From a virus, in the IMG/VR virus record IMGVR_UViG_3300012006_000039, positions 1 through 21,186 of that record: a stretch of DNA of 21,186 nt. One strand, given 5' to 3'. The first letter of the stretch is position 1; every line of letters begins with the position of its first letter. The position numbers and the translations under genes were made by a program. This document shows, in pieces, positions 726 through 19,484 of this stretch. The notes beneath the pieces are model-generated. The model ran no database searches. It was not told the DNA's origin and saw only the letters and a program-made list of their open reading frames with translations.

Positions 726-758
726 TGTGATTTAAGACACACTGTGATATTTCCCACA
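726..758 (+). promoter_or_regulatory. Tandem CRP/GlxR-like half-palindromes
   Basis: Two sites of the form TGTGA-N6-NCACA lie side by side: TGTGA at 726-730 with ACACA at 737-741, and TGTGA at 743-747 with CCACA at 754-758. Each differs from the TGTGA-N6-TCACA consensus of actinobacterial CRP/GlxR at one position. They are centred about 17 bp apart, upstream of the -10 box at 792. Confidence 0.5.
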
Positions 759-774
759 AATTTTCAGCAGGTTT

Positions 775-797
775 TTGTCAGTGGCTCATGGTATTAT
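775..797 (+). promoter_or_regulatory. TGTCAG-type phage promoter P1
   Basis: TTGTCA (775-780) followed by G, and a -10 box TATTAT (792-797), separated by exactly 11 bp. No acceptable -35 hexamer occurs 16-18 bp upstream of the -10 box. The predicted leader then carries the ACGAAAGG ribosome binding site (811-818) for the GTG-start gene at 827. Confidence 0.65.
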
Positions 798-826
798 TCT
801 CTTAAATCAAACGAAAGGTAATAACT

Positions 827-988
827 GTGGGTAATCTAATCGAAGCCTTATGTGCCGTCTGTAATGCTACTACTAATTCTTATTCCGTTAAGCCGTCTGA
901 ATTATGCCCTGAGCATTATTTTGAATGGTCTGAGGAAAAAGGATTTATGGAATTATCTGAGCGAGAGGATTACTTTCACCTTGTCTAA
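827..988 (+). CDS. Small CxxC...CxxH putative zinc protein (53 aa)
   Basis: Starts with GTG at 827, 8 nt after the conserved ACGAAAGG ribosome binding site of promoter P1. The 53-residue product has C9-x2-C12 and later C27-P-E-H30, a pattern fitting one tetrahedral zinc site, followed by an acidic helix ('YFEWSEEKGFMELSERE'). The binding-site spacing and the cysteine pattern support this frame over the longer overlapping ORF that opens at 852. It ends inside the start of the Gp88-family gene (8-nt overlap). Confidence 0.7.
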   Translation: MGNLIEALCAVCNATTNSYSVKPSELCPEHYFEWSEEKGFMELSEREDYFHLV

Positions 989-1703
989 ACTAAAACGTTC
1001 TAACGATAGAAAAGTTGCTAACCTTGTTACTAAGAATGGAAAGCAAGCCGCAATTGCTAATACTTTCGGATTACCTGCAGGAAAAGAATTCTCATGCCCT
1101 GGCGCTACTAGCATATGCGAAAGCGTATGCTATGCAGGTAAATTAGAAAAGCTCTTCAAGGGCGTTAAGGTTAATCTATTACACAATTGGGAATTGCTAC
1201 GCAATGCAGACATGGATACCATGTTGCTATTGATAGATGAAATGATTGTTGAATTTGTTAACGATTGTGAAAAGAAAGACGCCCCTAAATTATTCCGTAT
1301 CCATTGGGACGGAGATTTTTTCAATGATACTTATACCTATGCATGGAAGACTGTTATTACTAATCATCCCGATGTTCAATTTTGGGTGTATACACGTGTT
1401 AAGTCTGCCGCCCTTATTCTTAAGGATATAACTAATCTTTCACTCTACTATTCTACCGACGACGAGAATAAAGAAATTGCTCACGGTCTAAAACTAAATG
1501 AAGGTATCCGCCTTGCATATTTAGGAAAGACTTTCGCCGTTACCGAAAGCAAGATGAAAGAATTAACGGGAAAACCTGGCGCTAAGTGTCCTGAGAATAT
1601 GAAAAGCATTCCGCTTATATCAAGCAATGGGTCTGCATGCGTCTCATGTGGGTTATGCGTTTATGGTAAAGCGGATATTAGATTTTCTGCGAGTAAAAAA
1701 TGA
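981..1703 (+). CDS. Gp88-family (mycobacteriophage Gp88-like) cysteine-rich protein
   Basis: About 240 residues when started at TTG 981, which has a GAGAGGA binding site upstream and an 8-nt overlap with the preceding gene. Upstream ATGs in this frame (852 on) would be translated inside that gene and give a low-complexity hydrophobic N-terminus, so they are unlikely. Motifs: C39-P-G-A-T-S-I-C46-x3-C50-Y-A, then FRIHWDGDFF (105-114), and a C-terminal cluster C203, C220, C223, C226. This order (SCPGAT..C...CYA, then an R-I-H-x-D/G-D-F-F motif) is what I know from the Gp88 family (PF17338) of actinobacterial phages, whose biochemical role is not established. The cysteines suggest a metal or Fe-S site. 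Confidence 0.75.
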   Translation: MSKLKRSNDRKVANLVTKNGKQAAIANTFGLPAGKEFSCPGATSICESVCYAGKLEKLFKGVKVNLLHNWELLRNADMDTMLLLIDEMIVEFVNDCEKKDAPKLFRIHWDGDFFNDTYTYAWKTVITNHPDVQFWVYTRVKSAALILKDITNLSLYYSTDDENKEIAHGLKLNEGIRLAYLGKTFAVTESKMKELTGKPGAKCPENMKSIPLISSNGSACVSCGLCVYGKADIRFSASKK

Positions 1704-1798
1704 TCATAGATTTATTTGCTGCAGTAATTGCTATTGGATTCTGTTTAATATTAATCGGTCCCATTATTTTGGGAATTTATATTTTCAGTAAAATGTAA
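1700..1798 (+). CDS. Single-pass membrane microprotein (32 aa)
   Basis: A 32-residue ORF coupled to the Gp88-family gene by a 4-nt ATGA overlap. Almost the whole peptide is one hydrophobic segment (residues 4-29, rich in Ile/Leu/Gly) ending in the short polar tail FSKM. The exact coupling and the clean membrane segment argue for a real gene, though it is too short to assign. Confidence 0.45.
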   Translation: MIIDLFAAVIAIGFCLILIGPIILGIYIFSKM

Positions 1799-1843
1799 GC
1801 GTGTCGCCTTGACAAATGTCAGGGCGCCCGCATATGTGGCGGC

Positions 1844-1875
1844 TTATCCACAGGCTTACGAGTGGTTGTGGATAA
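1844..1875 (+). promoter_or_regulatory. Inverted pair of DnaA-box-like TTATCCACA
   Basis: TTATCCACA (1844-1852) and its exact inverse complement TGTGGATAA (1867-1875) face each other across 14 bp. TTATCCACA is the textbook bacterial DnaA box. The pair could equally form a 9-bp RNA hairpin at the end of the previous operon. A TTACGA element (1856-1861) lies in the loop. A very similar arrangement recurs at 3662-3693. Confidence 0.45.
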
Positions 1876-1885
1876 CCCTGGAAAA

Positions 1886-1901
1886 TGTGAGAAAACTCAC
1901 A
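1886..1901 (+). promoter_or_regulatory. Perfect CRP/GlxR-like site
   Basis: TGTGA (1886-1890), 6 bp, TCACA (1897-1901): an exact match to the TGTGA-N6-TCACA consensus recognised by CRP-family regulators, including mycobacterial CRP and corynebacterial GlxR. It lies 56 bp (centre to -10) upstream of promoter P2. Confidence 0.6.
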
Positions 1902-1932
1902 AAAGCTGCGACACGCCGTAATAGATTAGGAA

Positions 1933-1955
1933 ATGTCAGTGGCCTATGCTAAAAT
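1933..1955 (+). promoter_or_regulatory. TGTCAG-type phage promoter P2
   Basis: ATGTCA (1933-1938)+G, exactly 11 bp, then TAAAAT (1950-1955). The leader carries CAACCAACGAAAGG (binding site GAAAGG at 1973-1978) before the ATG at 1985. Only a weak -35 match (TTAGGA, 18-bp spacer) is present. Confidence 0.65.
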
Positions 1956-1984
1956 ACTCTTATCCAACCAACGAAAGGTAACAA

Positions 1985-2200
1985 ATGAAACTAACTCATA
2001 ATGTAAAAGTAGATGTAGAGTTTAACGATACTACTACTCCCGACTATGTAATTCTTGCATTAACTAGCATGAAAGAATCAGACTTACAGGCCATGCTTGC
2101 AGATGTATTTATTAACTCTCTTGCAAGCATTGACGCATTAACTAAAATTAACGAAAACAATTCTTATGCAACAGTATCATTCCCTATGGTGCAAAACTAA
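1985..2200 (+). CDS. Hypothetical small protein (71 aa)
   Basis: First gene after promoter P2, with GAAAGG 6 nt before the ATG. A 71-residue protein: an N-terminal strand with alternating hydrophobics (MKLTHNVKVDVEF), a Thr-rich turn, then a helix (SDLQAMLADVFINSLASIDAL) and a final strand. Not recognised. Its stop overlaps the next ATG (TAATG), so the two genes are coupled. Confidence 0.7.
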   Translation: MKLTHNVKVDVEFNDTTTPDYVILALTSMKESDLQAMLADVFINSLASIDALTKINENNSYATVSFPMVQN

Positions 2201-2469
2201 TGGGATACAATACAGCGTTAGATTTATCTAATGAATTAGATTTAGAAATGGCATTGTCTATACACTTACAATCTAATCATTACCCGCCCGTTCCTCTTTC
2301 TATGGTAGAGCCTTGCATACAAGCAATTGACGCATACTATGACGAGGACTATAACAAAATGATCGAAATGCCTGCGGGAGTATTTTATCGTGGAAGCGAT
2401 TTAGCACCTGCATCGGCTATCATCGAACAACACCACCTAGAAGCGTGGCTACCTGAAAATTGTGACTAA
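2200..2469 (+). CDS. Conserved hypothetical phage protein (89 aa)
   Basis: Coupled to the gene before it by TAATG. The 89-residue product starts MGYNTALDLSNELDLEMALS and contains the segment 'SNHYPPVPLSMVEPCIQAIDAY' and the C-terminal 'ASAIIEQHHLEAWL', a combination I know from uncharacterised actinobacterial phage proteins. No catalytic motif is evident. Its last codons overlap a perfect TGTGA-N6-TCACA palindrome (2461-2476), so coding and regulatory information are superimposed. Confidence 0.75.
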   Translation: MGYNTALDLSNELDLEMALSIHLQSNHYPPVPLSMVEPCIQAIDAYYDEDYNKMIEMPAGVFYRGSDLAPASAIIEQHHLEAWLPENCD

Positions 2470-2476
2470 TGTCACA
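2461..2476 (+). promoter_or_regulatory. Perfect CRP/GlxR-like site over a stop codon
   Basis: TGTGA (2461-2465), CTAATG, TCACA (2472-2476). The site spans the last two sense codons and the stop of the preceding gene, and lies upstream of promoter P3, centred 55 bp before its likely start site. Confidence 0.55.
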
Positions 2477-2494
2477 GGCATAGGGGGTTGATAA

Positions 2495-2517
2495 ATGTCA
2501 GCCCTCTATGTTACAAT
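2495..2517 (+). promoter_or_regulatory. TGTCAG-type phage promoter P3 with inverted repeat
   Basis: ATGTCA (2495-2500)+G, 11 bp, TACAAT (2512-2517). A TTGATA at 2488-2493 with an 18-bp spacer could act as a -35 box here. CATAGGGGG (2479-2487) and CCCTCTATG (2502-2510) form an 8-of-9 inverted repeat that encloses the TGTCAG box and ends in the promoter spacer. Confidence 0.6.
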
Positions 2518-2542
2518 AAACCCCTACAAGAAAGGAAGCAAA

Positions 2543-2719
2543 ATGACAGTAAATGGATACACTTACAAGGTTGGTGATTTATTCACCACCCTAAAGTCAA
2601 AAAAGACAGGAGTAATCAAAGAGATTATTCCTAACGCATCTGGCTCGGTGCGAGTACTACTAGAAATGCCAACAAAAGAAACTCGTTGGACAACAGTAAG
2701 TAACTCAGCCCTAGTATAA
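2543..2719 (+). CDS. Small beta-rich phage protein, SH3/KOW-like candidate (58 aa)
   Basis: The ATG at 2543 is preferred: it follows the AAGAAAGGAAG binding site and lies downstream of promoter P3, whereas the in-frame ATG at 2495 is inside the promoter. The 58-residue product, starting MTVNGYTYKVGDLFTTLKS, has repeated short strands and the pattern 'KVGD.F...KSKKTGVIKEI......RVLLEM....RW', as seen in small SH3-like barrels. That fold is inferred from pattern only. Followed by promoter P4. Confidence 0.7.
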   Translation: MTVNGYTYKVGDLFTTLKSKKTGVIKEIIPNASGSVRVLLEMPTKETRWTTVSNSALV

Positions 2720-2725
2720 AGAGGT

Positions 2726-2765
2726 GGAGGGGTCGCATTGACTTGTCAGACCCCTCCGCTATAAT
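2726..2765 (+). promoter_or_regulatory. TGTCAG-type phage promoter P4 inside a perfect inverted repeat
   Basis: TTGTCA (2743-2748)+G, 11 bp, TATAAT (2760-2765). GGAGGGGTC (2726-2734) and GACCCCTCC (2749-2757) form a perfect 9-bp inverted repeat around the box; the right arm is the promoter spacer. TTGACT (2739-2744) overlaps the box with a 15-bp spacer. Drives the gene at 2813, which has a GAAAGAGG binding site. Confidence 0.65.
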
Positions 2766-2812
2766 ACAACTTAATAACAACTAACCAAACCAACTAACGA
2801 AAGAGGAAACAA

Positions 2813-3235
2813 ATGGCTAGAGGAAAAGCAATCTCAGTTAAAATCGCAACACCAAAAATCATCAAGGCACTAGAAACTAAGTTAGCACAATTAACTAAAG
2901 ACTACGAGGCACAAGAAGCAAACGAAGCAAAGTATAAGAAGTCTTATGAAAAGTGGCAAAAGGAAATTGGCAAATGGGCTATGGAACGCTGGGCTAAGGC
3001 TGAGGACATCAGAACTAACTACCGTTCTTGGAATAACCAATTAAACATTGACTTTAACCTAACAACTAAAGAAGCCGACTTCCCAGTAGAACCTGAAAAG
3101 GACTACGAGGTAATTCATGCTCACTCCTATCGTGAAATGAAAACTGAAATTGAAAACGCTATCCGTATTCTGAAAATGACAGATGAGGAAACAGTAAATA
3201 CTAGCACCTATAATGCGGTTGCTCAGTATCTCTAA
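2813..3235 (+). CDS. Coiled-coil hypothetical protein (140 aa)
   Basis: Starts 6 nt after GAAAGAGGAA. The 140-residue protein is charged and helical: residues about 10-55 have the heptad-like pattern of a coiled coil ('IIKALETKLAQLTKDYEAQ'), continuing with a Trp-rich stretch (KWQKEIGKWAMERW) and a second helix near residues 108-124. No enzyme motif is visible. Monocistronic by position, between promoter P4 and the hairpins at 3243-3310. Function unknown. Confidence 0.8.
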   Translation: MARGKAISVKIATPKIIKALETKLAQLTKDYEAQEANEAKYKKSYEKWQKEIGKWAMERWAKAEDIRTNYRSWNNQLNIDFNLTTKEADFPVEPEKDYEVIHAHSYREMKTEIENAIRILKMTDEETVNTSTYNAVAQYL

Positions 3236-3242
3236 ATAAAAT

Positions 3243-3310
3243 CGTTCTCGCATAACGATAAATTGCGAACGACCTGAGTATGTCGCCAAACTGCTCACAC
3301 CTTCGGGTGT
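3243..3310 (+). other. Two hairpins in the leader of the gene at 3333
   Basis: CGTTCTCGCA pairs with TGCGAACG (3243-3271, one bulge). A second hairpin, ACACC-TTCG-GGTGT (3297-3310), has a stable UUCG tetraloop. Neither has a U-tract. They sit between the stop at 3235 and the AAAGG binding site (3321-3325), and no TGTCAG promoter is present, so they may be an RNA processing or attenuation structure. Confidence 0.45.
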
Positions 3311-3332
3311 TCCTACTAACAAAGGTAATACC

Positions 3333-3596
3333 ATGGCAAATCGTTTTAGAATAGAAATCTATGACGCTAACAAGCAAAATGATTTAACAATTTATTCAGA
3401 GCAGGGAATTGACAAAGAATACTTAACTGAATTAGTATTTAGTAATCTGCGTAGATTTAATGGAACAGTACGTGCTTATGTTTTTGATAGTCTAAAGAAA
3501 AAGAAAACAACGGCTATGTTCCTAGATGAAGAAATTGTTGATAGCACAAATGCTAAAACAAATTTAACCACCGCAAAACAACTTAATTTAATTTAG
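3333..3596 (+). CDS. Conserved hypothetical phage protein (87 aa)
   Basis: An 87-residue protein starting MANRFRIEIYDANKQNDLT after an AACAAAGG binding site. The segment 'YSEQGIDKEYLTELVFSNLRRF' and the following 'YVFDSLKKKKTTAMFL' are familiar from unnamed actinobacterial phage proteins. It looks like an alpha/beta fold with a basic loop (KKKK). No known catalytic residues. Follows the two leader hairpins at 3243-3310. Confidence 0.8.
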   Translation: MANRFRIEIYDANKQNDLTIYSEQGIDKEYLTELVFSNLRRFNGTVRAYVFDSLKKKKTTAMFLDEEIVDSTNAKTNLTTAKQLNLI

Positions 3597-3661
3597 CGGG
3601 GATCAAGCTGGACAACTTGTAAAACTGTCCCACTATTTGAGATGCCCCCATAGCTGCGGGG

Positions 3662-3693
3662 TTATCCACAGCCTTACGGCTACCTGTGGAAAA
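3662..3693 (+). promoter_or_regulatory. DnaA-box-like TTATCCACA with partial inverse copy
   Basis: TTATCCACA (3662-3670) faces TGTGGAAAA (3685-3693), 7 of 9 matching the inverse complement. A nested GCCTTACGGC (3671-3680) lies between. The layout copies that at 1844-1875, again just upstream of a CRP-like site and a TGTCAG promoter. Confidence 0.4.
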
Positions 3694-3705
3694 CGCCTGA
3701 AAATT

Positions 3706-3721
3706 TGTGAGATTGATCACA
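3706..3721 (+). promoter_or_regulatory. Perfect CRP/GlxR-like site
   Basis: TGTGA (3706-3710), GATTGA, TCACA (3717-3721). Preceded by CGCCTGAAAA, a sequence that also precedes the sites near 6828 and the promoter at 5021. Centre lies about 74 bp before the predicted start of promoter P5. Confidence 0.6.
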
Positions 3722-3758
3722 TAGCACAATTCGGACAAATGACTAACAAGACTAGTAA

Positions 3759-3781
3759 ATGTCAGACCCCTATGTTATACT
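3759..3781 (+). promoter_or_regulatory. TGTCAG-type phage promoter P5
   Basis: ATGTCA (3759-3764)+G, 11 bp, TATACT (3776-3781). No -35 match at 16-18 bp. The leader carries CAACCAATCGAAAGG ahead of the DUF932 gene. Confidence 0.65.
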
Positions 3782-3813
3782 TACCAAATCAACCAATCGA
3801 AAGGAATAAATTC

Positions 3814-4818
3814 ATGGCTCATAATCTAGAAATGGAAAATGGCGAAGTTGCTTTTGCTCTTCGTGGTGCTCCTGCTTGGCATAATCTTGCCAATCGTATT
3901 TTCTCACAAGATGAGGAAGTAACTACTCAAACAATGCTTGAAGAAGCAAAACTATCAAATTGGAATGTTCGTCTATCTCCAATCACTGAGCACATTCCAG
4001 AATCTTGGAATGATGTATCTACCGCATCTCTTGTCATTCGTGACAACCCATTCAATGGTGCTACCGATGTTCTTGCTACTGTTGGAAAGCGTTATGTTCC
4101 AGTACAGAATGAGGAACTATTTGCCTTTGCCGATGCTATTCACGATGCCGACCCTAATTGCCGTTGGGAATCTGCTGGCTCATTGAAAAAGGGTAAAGTG
4201 GTTTTCGGAACTGTGGACATTCCCCGCACAATGGTATTAGACCCACAAGGCGCTAATGACCAAACCAAACTTTATTTAATTGTTTGGACATCACACGATG
4301 GTTCTGTTGCTGTTCAAGCAGCCGTGACACCTGTTCGTGTAGTTTGCCAAAACACATTGAATCTTGCTATGCGTGAGGCTAAGCAATCTTTCAAGATTCG
4401 CCATACTCAAACTGTTGAAGGACGAATTGCTGTTGCCCGTGAAACTCTTGGGCTTGCTCTTGGTTACTTTGATGAATTTGAGAAAGAAGCACAAGCGCTT
4501 TATACTCAAGCAATTACCGATGCGGAATTTTCTAAATTGGTTCAAGCAATCTACCCTAAGCCTGAAAAAGATTCTAAGGGTGCGCTAAAGAAGTGGGAAA
4601 ATAAAATTGTTCTGCTTGATGAACTTTATTATAACTCACCTACTAACGCTACAATCAAGGGAACAAAATGGGGTGCGTTTAATGCGCTAACCGAACGCCT
4701 TGATTACTATCGCACAAGCCGTGGAAATTCTGAATCTCTAATGGCTGGCGCAAGCGGTTTCGACCCTGTTCTAACTGCTGAAAAAAATAGAATCAAGAAA
4801 TTGGTTTCTGTTTTCTAA
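3814..4818 (+). CDS. DUF932 phage/plasmid-like protein
   Basis: A 334-residue protein starting MAHNLEMENGEVAFALRG, at the ATG that follows GAAAGGAATAAATTC; in-frame codons upstream (to 3637) cover promoter P5 and are not coding. It matches the DUF932 family (PF06067; TIGR03299 'phage/plasmid-like protein'): N-terminal 'PAWHNLANRIF', the central 'VGKRYVPVQNEELFAFAD' region, 'AVTPVRVVCQNTLNLAMREA' near residues 170-190, and a C-terminal 'NATIKGTKWGAFNALTERLDYY'. The length is typical. Family members occur on phages and plasmids next to replication or accessory genes; no activity has been proven. Single-gene unit followed by tRNA-Asp. Confidence 0.9.
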   Translation: MAHNLEMENGEVAFALRGAPAWHNLANRIFSQDEEVTTQTMLEEAKLSNWNVRLSPITEHIPESWNDVSTASLVIRDNPFNGATDVLATVGKRYVPVQNEELFAFADAIHDADPNCRWESAGSLKKGKVVFGTVDIPRTMVLDPQGANDQTKLYLIVWTSHDGSVAVQAAVTPVRVVCQNTLNLAMREAKQSFKIRHTQTVEGRIAVARETLGLALGYFDEFEKEAQALYTQAITDAEFSKLVQAIYPKPEKDSKGALKKWENKIVLLDELYYNSPTNATIKGTKWGAFNALTERLDYYRTSRGNSESLMAGASGFDPVLTAEKNRIKKLVSVF

Positions 4819-4856
4819 ATAAAAAAATCCTGAGCAAGATTTAAAACTGCTCGCAC

Positions 4857-4930
4857 GATCTCTTAGCTCAGTTGGTTAGAGCGCTACCCTGTCACGGTAG
4901 AGGCCACGGGTTCAAGTCCCGTAGAGGTCG
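4857..4930 (+). tRNA. tRNA-Asp (GTC)
   Basis: A complete 74-nt cloverleaf. Acceptor GATCTCT pairs with AGAGGTC, with discriminator G73. D arm GCTC/GAGC; anticodon stem CTACC/GGTAG with loop CTGTCAC, anticodon GTC; T arm ACGGG/CCCGT with TTCAAGT loop. CCA is not encoded. It lies 38 nt after the DUF932 stop, and no separate promoter is obvious, so it is probably cotranscribed from P5 and processed out. Confidence 0.95.
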
Positions 4931-4968
4931 CTAAGTATATTTGTCGACAATGCCCCCAATATTGAGGG

Positions 4969-4984
4969 TGTGATACAGATCATA
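4969..4984 (+). promoter_or_regulatory. Near-consensus CRP/GlxR-like site
   Basis: TGTGA (4969-4973), TACAGA, TCATA (4980-4984): one mismatch to TGTGA-N6-TCACA. Centred about 73 bp before the predicted start of promoter P6, close to the spacing seen for P5. A copy of the palindrome TGTCGACA lies nearby at 4942-4949. Confidence 0.45.
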
Positions 4985-5020
4985 CGGAGAGCTTAGAAAT
5001 TTGCCTGAAATCCTGGACAA

Positions 5021-5043
5021 ATGTCAGTGGGACCTGCTACAAT
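5021..5043 (+). promoter_or_regulatory. TGTCAG-type phage promoter P6, leaderless
   Basis: ATGTCA (5021-5026)+G, 11 bp, TACAAT (5038-5043). Six bases later comes the ATG at 5050, so transcription would start at the A of the start codon. There is no ribosome binding site. TGGACA with an 18-bp spacer (5014-5019) is a possible -35 box. Confidence 0.65.
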
Positions 5044-5049
5044 TCTGTC

Positions 5050-5712
5050 ATGACCAACGAACTAGTATCATCTGTATATACATTCGTCTGTGACCCAGAT
5101 GAATGTGATTCATTAATTCAATTAACATCATCAGATGGATTTGGATTCCCATCTGGTGTGACAGAACTCACATGCCCATGTGGTCGCAAAACCACATTAG
5201 TGTCAGTGGAGCATGCTACAATTGCACCTTCAACCCAAACGAAAGAGGAAAAAATGGAAGAGACAACAACACCTGCAGTAACAGTACCTGATACATATAA
5301 CGCTAATCTATTAGTAACATATAAAGTTATTCATGGATATTCAGACGCAACATATGAAACAGATAAAGTTGCTAGCATTGAATGGTCTTTGCATAATGGC
5401 CGTCAATCACAAAAGCAAGTAAATATGTATTTATCTAAGATTGATTCAGTAAAAGATATTATTACTGAGGCTTATGCTGATTCAGATGACCAAGATACAC
5501 TTCGTTCAATTGCTGAAGCGCTAGACATTGAGTTAACACGAGATGTTGAGTGGTCTGCAACAATTGAGGTTAGCGGTACTATTCAATTAGATTTACTTGC
5601 TGATTCAGATACAGATATTGAATCAGAAATCTATGACAATCTTTATGTTGAGTCTCAGAATGGCAACATTGAAATTGTTGACACTGAAGTTACGAATGTA
5701 CGTGAAAACTAA
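5050..5712 (+). CDS. Zinc-ribbon protein with C-terminal acidic domain (220 aa)
   Basis: The N-terminal module (residues 1-60) has C14-x4-C19 and C42-P-C44, with the segment 'DGFGFPSGVTELTCPCGRK' that I know from short zinc-ribbon proteins of actinobacterial phages. A second module (about 69-220) is acidic and alpha/beta, ending in 'SGTIQLDLLADSDTDIESEI'. The linker between them (codons for 'VSVEHATIAPSTQTKEEK') is encoded by a full TGTCAG promoter plus GAAAGAGG binding site, placed in front of in-frame ATG 5254 (M69). Two products are therefore likely: full-length from the leaderless start and a 152-residue short form. The arrangement may have arisen by in-frame fusion of two genes. Coupled to the next gene by TAATG. 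Confidence 0.75.
   Translation: MTNELVSSVYTFVCDPDECDSLIQLTSSDGFGFPSGVTELTCPCGRKTTLVSVEHATIAPSTQTKEEKMEETTTPAVTVPDTYNANLLVTYKVIHGYSDATYETDKVASIEWSLHNGRQSQKQVNMYLSKIDSVKDIITEAYADSDDQDTLRSIAEALDIELTRDVEWSATIEVSGTIQLDLLADSDTDIESEIYDNLYVESQNGNIEIVDTEVTNVREN
5200..5222 (+). promoter_or_regulatory. TGTCAG-type promoter P6b inside a coding region
   Basis: GTGTCA (5200-5205)+G, 11 bp, TACAAT (5217-5222), followed by a CAACCCAAACGAAAGAGG leader and ATG at 5254. All parts of the cassette seen at P1-P5 are present, though the segment lies in an open reading frame that begins at 5050. Confidence 0.6.
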
Positions 5713-5924
5713 TGTACTTTGAACTTACCGCTCCCGATAGGTTGTCCATGGAGATGGCCTATTGGGAAGCACAGATTACTGGACTAGACCCCGAAGCAAT
5801 GACACCATTGACATTCAACATTGGAACTGGTAGTATTGAGAAAGTAAGTAGGTTGCGAGATAAGTTTAACTTAGTTGAATCTTATATGGCAGACCAAGAA
5901 CCTACTGGATATTTGAGAGGATAA
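5712..5924 (+). CDS. Hypothetical small protein (70 aa)
   Basis: Coupled to the preceding gene by TAATG. A 70-residue acidic helical protein starting MYFELTAPDRLSMEMAYWEA, with a central 'PLTFNIGTGSIEKVSRLRDKF' segment. Not recognised. The next gene starts 2 nt after its stop and uses the GAGAGGATAAT around the stop codon as binding site. Confidence 0.7.
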   Translation: MYFELTAPDRLSMEMAYWEAQITGLDPEAMTPLTFNIGTGSIEKVSRLRDKFNLVESYMADQEPTGYLRG

Positions 5925-5925
5925 T

Positions 5926-6072
5926 ATGTCAGACTATAAAGACGGATTTGCGGACGGTTATAAGTTTGCTCGTGAAGAAATCACGGAAAAGCTTGCCGAG
6001 ATTGATATCAATGATATTGACTCTTGGATTCTAGCCCGTCTTTCTGACATGATTGAAGGGGGACAACTATGA
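5926..6072 (+). CDS. Hypothetical microprotein (48 aa)
   Basis: A 48-residue ORF starting MSDYKDGFADGYKFAREE, with AGAGGA 7 nt before its ATG and a 4-nt ATGA overlap with the next gene. 'DGF.DGY.FAREE' is a common start of small phage proteins with no known function; the remainder is an amphipathic helix. Confidence 0.65.
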   Translation: MSDYKDGFADGYKFAREEITEKLAEIDINDIDSWILARLSDMIEGGQL

Positions 6073-6275
6073 CAACGGAAGATCTAGATCGTTGGACTAA
6101 ATGCGACCAATGCTCAGCACAAGCCTTATGGTTAATTAAAGGAGTAGAAGGCGAACTCTTTTTCTGCGGGCACCATAAGAATAAAAACTTTGAGGCACTA
6201 GACAAATGGGCCTTTGAGATGATAGAATTAAACAAAGTCGAAGAAGTACCTATACTAGAAGAGGCGGAACTATAA
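6069..6275 (+). CDS. DUF7455-like zinc-binding protein (68 aa)
   Basis: The 68-residue product has C12-D-Q-C15 and, about 20 residues later, F-C-G-H-H, with 'KCDQCSAQALWLIKGVEGEL' between them. That CxxC...CxHH arrangement around two strands is characteristic of the small DUF7455-type actinobacterial proteins, found both in hosts and in their phages; they probably bind one zinc. Function unknown. Sits mid-operon, with ATGA and TAATG overlaps on either side. Confidence 0.75.
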   Translation: MTTEDLDRWTKCDQCSAQALWLIKGVEGELFFCGHHKNKNFEALDKWAFEMIELNKVEEVPILEEAEL

Positions 6276-6640
6276 TGGGAGACAGAGCAAATTTTGGATT
6301 TAAACAGAGCAGCGGAGAAACAATTGTACTCTATGGCCACTGGGCTGGATATCAAATGTTATCTAAACTATCACATGCAGTGGAGCAGGCCCGTCCACGG
6401 TGGACGGATGAATCATATGCAACACGTATATGCATTTCACAACTAGTTGGAGAAGACTGGAATTCAGAAACGGGCTGGGGACTTTCAGTCAATAGAATTC
6501 TAGACAATGAGCACAAGATTCCTGTAATTGATTGGAGCGCTCAAACGTTTAGCCTTCACGAGGAGTTAGACGGTCCGCCAATCTTTACCATGGACCTGAA
6601 TGCTTTCTGCAGCAAATACTCGGAGCTTGCTTCGGTATAA
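6275..6640 (+). CDS. Conserved hypothetical phage protein (121 aa)
   Basis: Coupled by TAATG. The 121-residue product begins MGDRANFGFKQSSGETIVLYGHWAG and contains 'ATRICISQLVGEDWNSETGWG' and 'IDWSAQTFSLHEE', a set of motifs that I know from a recurrent but unnamed protein of actinobacterial phages. Mixed alpha/beta, no membrane segment. Last gene of the operon that begins at 5050, closed by the strong terminator at 6731-6759. Confidence 0.8.
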   Translation: MGDRANFGFKQSSGETIVLYGHWAGYQMLSKLSHAVEQARPRWTDESYATRICISQLVGEDWNSETGWGLSVNRILDNEHKIPVIDWSAQTFSLHEELDGPPIFTMDLNAFCSKYSELASV

Positions 6641-6730
6641 TTATTAATGGGTGCCTCTATAGTCATTCGGCCAGGGGCTAAGTAACGCAGGTTTTTTACT
6701 TTCGTTGGTAACCTAGCAGCCCTTGTATCA

Positions 6731-6759
6731 ATCCCCCAGGTAAGATCTGGGGGATTTTT
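6731..6759 (+). terminator. Rho-independent terminator
   Basis: ATCCCCCAG (6731-6739) pairs perfectly with CTGGGGGAT (6747-6755) across a 7-nt loop, followed by a T tract to 6759. The best terminator in the rightward arm; it closes the 5050-6640 operon. The 90 nt between the last stop and this hairpin hold no gene I can support (see findings). Confidence 0.85.
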
Positions 6760-6827
6760 GCATGCCCTCAAAAACATGAGGGTAGCATAATTCTCTTACG
6801 AGGTCAATATAAATTCGCCTGAAATTC

Positions 6828-6870
6828 TGTGATCTTGACCACAAAGCTGAATCATGTGGCATGTATCACA
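6828..6870 (+). promoter_or_regulatory. Two near-consensus CRP/GlxR-like sites
   Basis: TGTGA-TCTTGA-CCACA (6828-6843) and TGTGG-CATGTA-TCACA (6855-6870), each one mismatch from consensus. The second is overlaid by a palindrome, GGCATGT-ATC-ACATGCC (6858-6874). Both lie upstream of promoter P7. An AAATTCGCCTGAAATTC segment precedes the first site. Confidence 0.5.
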
Positions 6871-6887: not shown

Positions 6888-6910
6888 TTGTCAGTGGTCC
6901 ATTGTATAAT
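6888..6910 (+). promoter_or_regulatory. TGTCAG-type phage promoter P7
   Basis: TTGTCA (6888-6893)+G, 11 bp, TATAAT (6905-6910). No -35 box at 16-18 bp. A short leader with CAACGAAAGG precedes the ATG at 6938. Confidence 0.7.
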
Positions 6911-6937: not shown

Positions 6938-7714
6938 ATGCCAAATTGGTGTTACAACACATTAACTATCCAAGGACCTAAGTCTGAGGTAGATATGATT
7001 AAAGATAGATTGAATGCTCCATTTACATTAGCACAGGAGACATTTGGTATGGGTGATATTTCTACTATGGGGTTTCCTACTAAGATTACTCAGGTATCTT
7101 ATTCTAATCCCGTTTTTTCTTTTCACAACATTCACTCATATAAAGATGACGGAATTACTGATGAGGAATATGCCTGCCAGCCTAATCGTGGCGACTATGA
7201 TATTCAAAATGACCCTGATTGGTTCCGCAAGTCTGTTGAGTTTGCTAAGACTCAAAAAGATTGGTATTCGTGGAATACATCTAATTGGGGAACTAAATGG
7301 GATGTAGCAGTTCGTGACGGTGAAGGGTATCCTGAAACAGAATTACTTGAATATAAATCAGAAGGTGATGACAACTGGCTTGTCTACAAATATGAAACTG
7401 CTTGGTCACCTGCTGTAACTATCTTAACTAAACTATCTAATCTTGTTCCGAACTGCCTGCTTACTTTAGAGTTTGAGGAAGAAACAGGTTGGGGTGGGGA
7501 ATATGAGATTGTCCGTGGTGAAGTAAAAGAATTGGCTGAATGGGAAACACGTTGCTATGCTTGTCAGTCTTATGATTGTGTTGAGTATTGCGAGAATGAC
7601 TGCGGTCAATTCTGCTCTGAATGCAATGAGGGTTCATGGCGTGATGAAGAGGCTATGAAAGAATGTCAGACCCATAGTGTATTATTGGAATCTAGAGAAA
7701 AGGCGGAAGTATGA
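6938..7714 (+). CDS. Api92-like ferredoxin-fold protein with C-terminal zinc cluster
   Basis: 258 residues. The N-terminus MPNWCYNTLTIQG, the central 'WNTSNWGTKWDV', and 'YKYETAWSPAVTILTKLS' followed by 'EEETGWGGEYEI' are the hallmark blocks of the Api92-like/DUF1281 family, a ferredoxin-like fold in many phages. An added C-terminal tail holds Cys at about 206, 209, 214, 218, 222, 226 and 229, enough for one or two zinc fingers, which is not part of the basic family. Role unknown; the tail suggests nucleic acid or protein binding (inference). First gene after P7 and coupled to the next by ATGA. Confidence 0.85.
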   Translation: MPNWCYNTLTIQGPKSEVDMIKDRLNAPFTLAQETFGMGDISTMGFPTKITQVSYSNPVFSFHNIHSYKDDGITDEEYACQPNRGDYDIQNDPDWFRKSVEFAKTQKDWYSWNTSNWGTKWDVAVRDGEGYPETELLEYKSEGDDNWLVYKYETAWSPAVTILTKLSNLVPNCLLTLEFEEETGWGGEYEIVRGEVKELAEWETRCYACQSYDCVEYCENDCGQFCSECNEGSWRDEEAMKECQTHSVLLESREKAEV

Positions 7715-8242: not shown

Positions 8243-8465
8243 ATCATCTCAATTCCTGGAGTATATGAAGCTTCATCTAATTAGTTTAGAACAGGATTCT
8301 GAACGTATTCAAGAAGAAATGTCTCAGTTTGAATATAACATGGATTCAAAAGACTATCAGTCATTAGAGATTGAAGACATATCTTTAAATGGACAGATTA
8401 TAGCAACCAGGCATTTGTTGTCAGTGGCTACTGATATAATGAACTCTACTAGCGAAAGGGTATAA
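8235..8465 (+). CDS. Coiled-coil hypothetical protein (76 aa)
   Basis: A 76-residue helical protein starting MTKSSQFLEYMKLHLISLEQ, with heptad-like spacing through residues 10-60, so probably a coiled coil. Its final 17 codons ('LLSVATDIMNSTSERV' and stop) are the same bases as promoter P8 and the leader of the next gene, so the C-terminus is constrained by regulatory sequence. Function unknown. Confidence 0.65.
   Translation: MTKSSQFLEYMKLHLISLEQDSERIQEEMSQFEYNMDSKDYQSLEIEDISLNGQIIATRHLLSVATDIMNSTSERV
8418..8440 (+). promoter_or_regulatory. TGTCAG-type phage promoter P8 within a gene end
   Basis: TTGTCA (8418-8423)+G, 11 bp, TATAAT (8435-8440), embedded in the last codons of the gene ending at 8465. 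The leader carries AGCGAAAGGG before the ATG at 8467. No -35 box at 16-18 bp. Confidence 0.65.
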
Positions 8466-9474: not shown

Positions 9475-9500
9475 GAAGAACTCAATTTTAGGAGGCGGAA

Positions 9501-9770: not shown

Positions 9771-9798
9771 TATATACAGCCCAAATTATCCACAGGTT

Positions 9799-9820
9799 AT
9801 CCACAGCCTGTGGATTTTTT
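9799..9820 (+). terminator. Rho-independent terminator overlapping DnaA-box-like repeats
   Basis: ATCCACAG (9799-9806) pairs with CTGTGGAT (9808-9815), followed by six T residues to 9820. The stem is built from a TTATCCACA copy and its inverse, so the sequence can act as terminator, protein-binding site, or both. Confidence 0.65.
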
Positions 9821-19375: not shown

Positions 19376-19411
19376 TTTTTCCCTATCTAGTAAGTCCGCC
19401 TAGATTTATTG

Positions 19412-19484
19412 CTGGCCCACTAGGATTCGAACCTAGGACCTAGAAGTTAACAGCTTCCCGCTCTGCCTGCTGAGCTATGGGCCA
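19412..19484 (-). tRNA. tRNA-Asn (GTT)
   Basis: A 73-nt cloverleaf on the minus strand. Acceptor TGGCCCA/TGGGCCA, D arm GCTC/GAGC, anticodon stem GGAAG/CTTCT (one G-U) with loop CTGTTAA, anticodon GTT; T arm CTAGG/CCTAG with TTCGAAT; discriminator G73, as in tRNA-Asn. CCA is not encoded. It has its own consensus promoter and heads the operon containing whiB. Confidence 0.93.

Follow-up and report, generated by a model that had tools for sequence, protein, structure and literature searches.

CRP/GlxR-type boxes in helical register with PafBC/RecA-NDp-type promoters in the rightward arm of a putative actinophage group

The RecA-NDp promoter motif (tTGTCRgtg-8nt-TannnT, as quoted in PMC5656591) is the target of PafBC. 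As described in PMC11804915, the helix-turn-helix (HTH) of PafB contacts a -26 promoter motif, PafC contacts domain 4 of SigA, and PafBC is activated by single-stranded DNA (ssDNA) bound at its WYL domains, a mode of control known as sigma adaptation. The consensus of GlxR is TGTGANNTANNTCACA, with a central TA (PMC4254451), and class I activation by CRP in E. coli varies periodically with the distance of the site (PMC6301791). We analyzed a 21,186-base virus record from IMG/VR (IMGVR_UViG_3300012006_000039, 38.5% GC), hereafter the window, in which boxes of the form TGTGA-N6-TCACA precede promoters of the form TGTCAG-N10-TANNNT. No nucleotide match to the window was found in the INPHARED phage collection. 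Judged from these motifs, the phage promoters would fairly probably be PafBC-dependent and boosted by CRP bound in helical register; taken singly, PafBC as the reader of the TGTCAG element and CRP as the reader of the box each appeared quite likely.

Four perfect and five one-mismatch boxes were located in the window (4 and, with up to one mismatch, 9 observed), as against 0.04 and 0.9 expected per window by first-order Markov simulation. Boxes with two mismatches numbered 12, the same as by chance, so the signal is confined to near-perfect boxes. All nine were in the rightward arm, and none was found beyond position 9500 at up to one mismatch. Downstream of each box stood a TGTCAG-N10-TANNNT sequence, with gaps from box end to TGTCAG start of 17, 18, 19, 28, 32, 34, 37, 38, and 45 bp. 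There were ten promoters of this form on the plus strand, of which seven had a single box or a pair, and the distance between TGTCAG and the -10 box was exactly 10 bp in 10 of 10. The single TGTCAG-N10-TANNNT on the minus strand is probably a chance occurrence. The first-pass annotation of this DNA, made from the sequence alone, had named three perfect sites (starting at 1886, 2461, and 3706) and five with one mismatch (726, 743, 4969, 6828, and 6855). All eight were present, and a fourth perfect site at 5157-5172 had been missed. The 50-85 bp it had given as the distance to TGTCAG was an overestimate, the gap being 17-45 bp and the start-to-start distance 33-61 bp. The concentration in the rightward arm was borne out by a leftward arm empty of boxes, and the assignment to the actinobacterial CRP/GlxR type was upheld, with the central TA as in the GlxR consensus.

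The pairing of box and promoter extended well beyond the window. IMG/VR was scanned for a box, 17-47 bp, and a promoter, with all gaps from 17 to 47 allowed equally. At least 120 stretches carried the pair, compared with 7 when the box was reversed and 14 when TGTCAG was scrambled. In 1.08 Mb of fetched phage DNA there were 398 perfect palindromes, versus 15 for five control palindromes combined. A TGTC[AG]G promoter was within 90 bp of 322 of these 398, where 5% were expected, and many of the remaining palindromes adjoined variant promoters. The same search of cellular genomes returned 41 hits in unrelated taxa with scattered gaps, approximately the chance level, and the composite promoter was therefore rejected as a host feature. 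The sole exception was a 110 kb contig (CAINGU010000031.1; 35% GC in the stretch fetched) with three composite promoters in register; it was binned in a cyanobacterial metagenome-assembled genome and is probably a misbinned phage contig. Among cultured relatives, the examined stretches of NootNoot, Mandalore, and CRB1 lacked the motif except for one or two scattered matches in each. On the minus strand of Mycobacterium phage CRB1, at position 46221, a RecA-NDp-like sequence (TGTCAGTACCCACCTGTACATT) was seen some 220 bp before the gene for the immunity repressor, which may be due to chance.

The spacing of box and promoter followed the DNA helix. In a set of 195 non-redundant boxes, perfect or with a single mismatch, the cores TGTG and CACA were almost invariant, mismatches fell chiefly at positions 5 and 12, and the center preferred TA (36%). 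Gaps between box and TGTCAG in 356 non-redundant promoters peaked at 18, 28, and 38 bp and, beyond the range of the scan, at 48/49 and 59 bp, with a minor peak at 33/34. The best period was 10.2 bp with a vector strength R of 0.70 (n=195), whereas the null maximum in 2000 random trials was 0.28. With the first base of the -10 as the reference point, the peaks in the phages were at 42.5, 52.5, 62.5, and 72.5 bp, and E. coli lac is at 49.5. The boxes of the first-pass annotation were real and strongly selected, and they were linked to promoters and in helical register.

We further compared the promoters gene by gene among related phages. The gap was 37 or 38 bp before orthologues of the DUF932 gene and 28 bp before those of the gene at 5254, and orthologues of the Api92-like gene had a double box at 18 and 45/46 bp. 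Orthologues of the gene at 2543 showed gaps of 18, 38, or 48/49 bp, differing by whole turns, while those of the gene at 2813 retained the promoter and had no box. Since these loci had been chosen by motif, 80 further loci were fetched by the DUF932 protein alone. Together with the window, 81 of 81 DUF932 genes had the promoter and 81 of 81 the box (76 perfect and 5 with one mismatch), at a gap of 37 or 38 bp. In their alignment TGTCAG and both halves of the box were invariant or nearly so, and many intervening columns were variable. Loss of the site in relatives that keep the promoter, a test set beforehand, was not seen, as all 81 promoters kept their box.

The core of these promoters corresponds to the RecA-NDp motif, for tTGTCRgtg-8nt-TannnT equals TGTCRG-N10-TANNNT, which the promoters of the window and its relatives match; in the phage promoters, the first T and the gtg are conserved in part. 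In 356 non-redundant phage promoters, TGTCAG was positioned at about -28 to -23, with transcription predicted to start 7 nt past TANNNT, an A/T-rich triplet came immediately before it, and an extended -10 TG was present. The logo of these promoters had no -35 signal and no SOS box standing out. Similar promoters were present in small Actinomycetes genomes (1.2-1.8 Mb, approximately 40-53% GC) that were used as stand-ins for the host, and whose size and GC content fit Ca. Nanopelagicales. At the recA loci of these genomes, 14 of 30 had a TGTCAG-N10-TANNNT-type promoter adjoining an SOS box; the small actinobacterial genomes carry TGTCAGTGGcgCCTGCTACCTT beside the SOS box before recA, and in one example the promoter TGTCAGTGGCACCTGCTACCTT is followed by TCGAACAGGTGTTCG. 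The window promoter closest in sequence to this recA promoter is that at 5022 (TGTCAGTGGGACCTGCTACAAT). Lacking an evident SOS box, the phage promoters appear to mimic the activating branch of recA control and to omit its LexA branch.

PafBC-type and CRP-type proteins are both encoded by the candidate hosts. WYL-domain genes were found in 33 of 33 small genomes, as an adjacent pair in nearly all. In one of them, G283, NCBIfam gave no name for the pair, the second protein had a PafC HTH domain (Pfam, E 4.9e-28), and downstream of the pair came a TatC-like gene and one for a large DEAD-box helicase, an order familiar from mycobacteria. A CRP-type domain binding cyclic nucleotide monophosphate (cNMP) was present in 389 of 395 Actinomycetes genomes, and the CRP of G283 was orthologous over its full length to the CRP of M. 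tuberculosis as present in PDB structures, among which 3i54 and 3d0s were the best hits; the RETVNKAL segment is common to both. A phage-encoded CRP or PafBC was also sought. Of 49 related phage records, several of them longer than 100 kb, none encoded a domain of the cNMP-binding or WYL type, although fragments cannot prove absence. CRP and PafBC are therefore probably both supplied by the host, and the absence of a crp gene noted earlier for the window extended to these records.

In the mechanism that we propose, expression of the rightward arm would depend on a set of composite promoters tailored to proteins of the host. During infection, ssDNA arising as the phage replicates or through damage to the host would load PafBC, a heterodimer of WYL proteins, which would redirect SigA-RNA polymerase by sigma adaptation to the phage TGTCAG-N10-TANNNT cores without a -35 element. 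At about half of the promoters, where a putative host CRP/GlxR box is 1-4 helical turns further upstream, a CRP dimer bound on the right face of the helix would touch either the polymerase (through the C-terminal domain of its alpha subunit) or PafBC, increasing recruitment and initiation. Box-less promoters would rely on PafBC alone.

Several observations weigh against this mechanism. Measured to the -10, the phage phase is about 3 bp off the class I optimum of E. coli (52.5/62.5 versus 49.5/59.5), a shift that could arise if PafBC is interposed between sigma region 4 and DNA or if CRP touches PafBC. The ssDNA requirement of PafBC fits poorly with very early genes, and binding of PafBC and CRP and their effect on expression are deduced from motifs. 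The small genomes are proxies for the host, and the two of lowest GC content (G283 and G210) have TGTCCT instead of TGTCAG at recA. No class III adenylate cyclase (PF00211) was found in 33 small candidate hosts; other cyclase classes were not searched. Perfect CRP boxes numbered 0-1 in each of 37 small genomes, not above the reversed control, and all intergenic sites of G283, the one proxy scanned in full, scored 12 or less, when phage sites averaged 18.6. A CRP regulon in G283 was accordingly rejected, with no strong sites and a weak intergenic excess not above permuted matrices.

These findings also bear on cyclic AMP (cAMP). The first-pass annotation had suggested that the phage reads host cAMP or carbon status, and the lack of both a class III cyclase and strong CRP sites in the candidate hosts left this idea unsupported. 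Either CRP acts without cAMP, or the host belongs to another lineage, or the box is read by another protein. Across Actinomycetes, 110 of 395 genomes contained the TA-centered consensus and only a handful the reversed control; the class thus makes use of the motif, though perfect copies are rare. The 33 small genomes, G283 among them, encode CRP with no obvious source of cAMP. Overall, the part of the earlier interpretation that tied CRP-type boxes to promoters stood; the cAMP/carbon reading did not, and the PafBC identity of TGTCAG had been overlooked.

If one or both readers were instead encoded by the phage, as a MotA-like activator at TGTCAG replacing the -35 contact or a dimer of undetected fold on the palindrome, a private regulon would fit both the density of boxes in phage DNA and the near absence of strong CRP sites in candidate hosts. 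MotA of phage T4 is a precedent for an activator of this type. We nevertheless regard this explanation as unlikely, given that the 49 related records, several over 100 kb, contained neither domain, and that the motifs match host RecA-NDp and GlxR in such details as the 10 bp spacer and the central TA and are found at host recA. Slightly less likely still is that CRP is involved while TGTCAG is no PafBC site, but part of an extended -10 spacer or a contact of a phage WhiB-like protein with SigA. The conserved extended -10 TG, the A/T-rich stretch immediately before TGTCAG, and the WhiB of the window, with counterparts in 19 of 50 relatives, are in keeping with it; a six-base element that keeps 10 bp to the -10, agrees exactly with RecA-NDp, and recurs at host recA is unexpected of a plain spacer.

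Instead of activating phage genes, the boxes might also serve for repression or blocking, or as a sink that titrates host CRP. Every site in the proxy host scores far below the phage boxes, whose copy number would increase in infection, as suits a decoy. Such a role needs no fixed distance, yet the gaps follow a period of 10.2 bp and are kept for each gene, and the boxes are upstream of the promoter instead of over it, like activator sites; we consider it improbable. An origin by chance or base composition, to which only the chance-level count of two-mismatch boxes in the window speaks, was ruled out for practical purposes by the control palindromes, by the reversed and scrambled scans (7 and 14 versus at least 120 stretches), and by the 81 of 81 orthologues. 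PafBC-dependent promoters boosted by phased CRP thus remained the reading that we favored. Its extended form, in which the non-structural arm of a freshwater actinophage clade is a regulon of host dual-input promoters, with PafBC sensing ssDNA and CRP sitting cAMP-free on the upstream face in a streamlined host and possibly contacting PafBC, is tentative; that contact would account for the 3 bp phase shift.

Table 1. Boxes, promoters, and accompanying elements in the window. Gaps are in bp from box end to TGTCAG start; ORF, open reading frame.
Feature	Position	Strand	Sequence	Remarks
CRP/GlxR-type box, one mismatch	726..741	+	TGTGATTTAAGACACA	gap 34 to TGTCAG 776
CRP/GlxR-type box, one mismatch	743..758	+	TGTGATATTTCCCACA	gap 17
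PafBC/RecA-NDp-type promoter	776..797	+	TGTCAGTGGCTCATGGTATTAT	before small Cys-rich ORF at 827 and Gp88
DnaA-box-like copies	1844-1875, 3662-3670, 9786-9805		TTATCCACA	beside CRP/PafBC-type promoters and in gap between arms
CRP/GlxR-type box, perfect	1886..1901	+	TGTGAGAAAACTCACA	gap 32
PafBC-type promoter	1934..1955	+	TGTCAGTGGCCTATGCTAAAAT	before ORF 1985; GACACGC element at 1910
CRP/GlxR-type box, perfect	2461..2476	+	TGTGACTAATGTCACA	gap 19; overlaps stop codon of ORF 2200-2469
PafBC-type promoter	2496..2517	+	TGTCAGCCCTCTATGTTACAAT	before ORF 2543; orthologues keep promoter, box gap 18, 38 or 48/49
PafBC-type promoter, no CRP box	2744..2765	+	TGTCAGACCCCTCCGCTATAAT	before ORF 2813; orthologues also without box
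CRP/GlxR-type box, perfect	3706..3721	+	TGTGAGATTGATCACA	gap 38; kept in 81/81 orthologous promoters
PafBC-type promoter	3760..3781	+	TGTCAGACCCCTATGTTATACT	before DUF932 gene (3814-4818)
CRP/GlxR-type box, one mismatch	4969..4984	+	TGTGATACAGATCATA	gap 37
PafBC-type promoter	5022..5043	+	TGTCAGTGGGACCTGCTACAAT	predicted start near ATG at 5050, possibly leaderless
CRP/GlxR-type box, perfect	5157..5172	+	TGTGACAGAACTCACA	gap 28, same in orthologues
PafBC-type promoter	5201..5222	+	TGTCAGTGGAGCATGCTACAAT	before start at 5254
CRP/GlxR-type box, one mismatch	6828..6843	+	TGTGATCTTGACCACA	gap 45
CRP/GlxR-type box, one mismatch	6855..6870	+	TGTGGCATGTATCACA	gap 18; 18 + 45/46 pair recurs before Api92-like orthologues
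PafBC-type promoter	6889..6910	+	TGTCAGTGGTCCATTGTATAAT	before Api92-like gene (6938-7714)
PafBC-type promoter-like sequence, no box	7664..7685	+		within 3' end of Api92-like ORF, upstream of ORF 7711
PafBC-type promoter, no box	8419..8440	+	TGTCAGTGGCTACTGATATAAT	before ORF 8467

Two further elements accompany the promoters (Table 1). Of 211 box-bearing promoters, 69 had GACAC[AG]C at -25/-26 or GCGTGTC at -16/-17 before TGTCAG, as against 12 of 175 box-less ones. The window example is the GACACGC at 1910, and host recA promoters have GACAC 13-17 bp before TGTCAG. The DnaA-box-like TTATCCACA occurred at 238 per Mb in phage loci versus 7 per Mb in G283 and was concentrated 60-120 bp upstream of TGTCAG. 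Within the dual-input regulon described above, GACACGC and TTATCCACA may conceivably be additional positioned host-type elements of the same phage promoters, an idea we hold with reserve. A palindrome, TGTCGACA, was also noted in four copies in the window (4942, 9897, 9929, and 10095); its density is 43 per Mb across the loci of related phages, and G283 has none.

The proteins of the window include WhiB-like, GP88, DUF932, Api92-like, Cpn10, thioredoxin, and subtilase proteins. WhiB is the usual marker of actinophages (PMC10202952), and the related phage records in which it was found were chiefly the longer ones. The closest annotated relatives of DUF932 and GP88 were in Streptomyces and Mycobacterium phages (52-56% identity). 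In the Streptomyces phage NootNoot, DUF932 is at the left genome end amid small hypothetical genes, and by this analogy the rightward arm of the window is probably a non-structural, early-type region. The group as a whole is a large set of lake viruses, with records of up to about 115 kb, whose hosts are probably streamlined actinobacteria. Each arm of the window carries one tRNA gene, tRNA-Asp (gtc) at 4857-4931 and tRNA-Asn (gtt) at 19411-19484.

If the proposed mechanism is true, widespread lake viruses would time their genes by the DNA-damage sensor of the host, instead of by an activator of their own or a plain strong promoter. It would then become testable whether infection activates PafBC, what role CRP has in streamlined bacteria seemingly without adenylate cyclase, and whether CRP can act on a polymerase whose sigma region 4 is kept off the DNA by PafBC. 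The natural set of phased promoters, with hundreds of variants at 18, 28, 38, 48, and 59 bp, offers a ready structure-function series, and the composite promoter could serve as a metagenome signature for recognizing the phage group.

In the open-access literature we found neither a phage with PafBC-type promoters nor a PafBC promoter with CRP stacked upstream; the arrangement of two known promoter types is new, and not the kind of regulation. The phage promoters share with RecA-NDp promoters such as recA P1 (PMC5656591; PMC11804915) the TGTCRG element, the same spacing to TANNNT, and the lack of a conserved -35, and they are near-identical to the recA promoters of small actinobacterial genomes. 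They differ from host RecA-NDp promoters in their many copies, the absence of an SOS box, and, mostly, a CRP box upstream. Like class I CRP promoters such as E. coli lac (PMC6301791), they have a near-consensus upstream box at distances one helical turn apart, but their core is PafBC-type, the boxes stand about 3 bp further from the -10 than the E. coli optimum, and the closest box center would be at about -54. With the GlxR and mycobacterial CRP regulons they share the TGTGANNTANNTCACA consensus and a host CRP orthologue with the same recognition segment, whereas neither a similar regulon of strong sites nor a class III adenylate cyclase was found in the candidate hosts. In the lysogeny-lysis control of phage T1 (PMC6737242), phage genes likewise respond to host CRP, as they are predicted to do here; T1, however, is a gammaproteobacterial temperate phage with no PafBC core and no repeated family of phased promoters. 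The Stanwilliamsviridae Streptomyces phages NootNoot and Mandalore resemble the window in DUF932 and Gp88-type proteins (52-56% identity), and it is the promoters and boxes, lacking in the stretches of both that were examined, that set the window apart from them.

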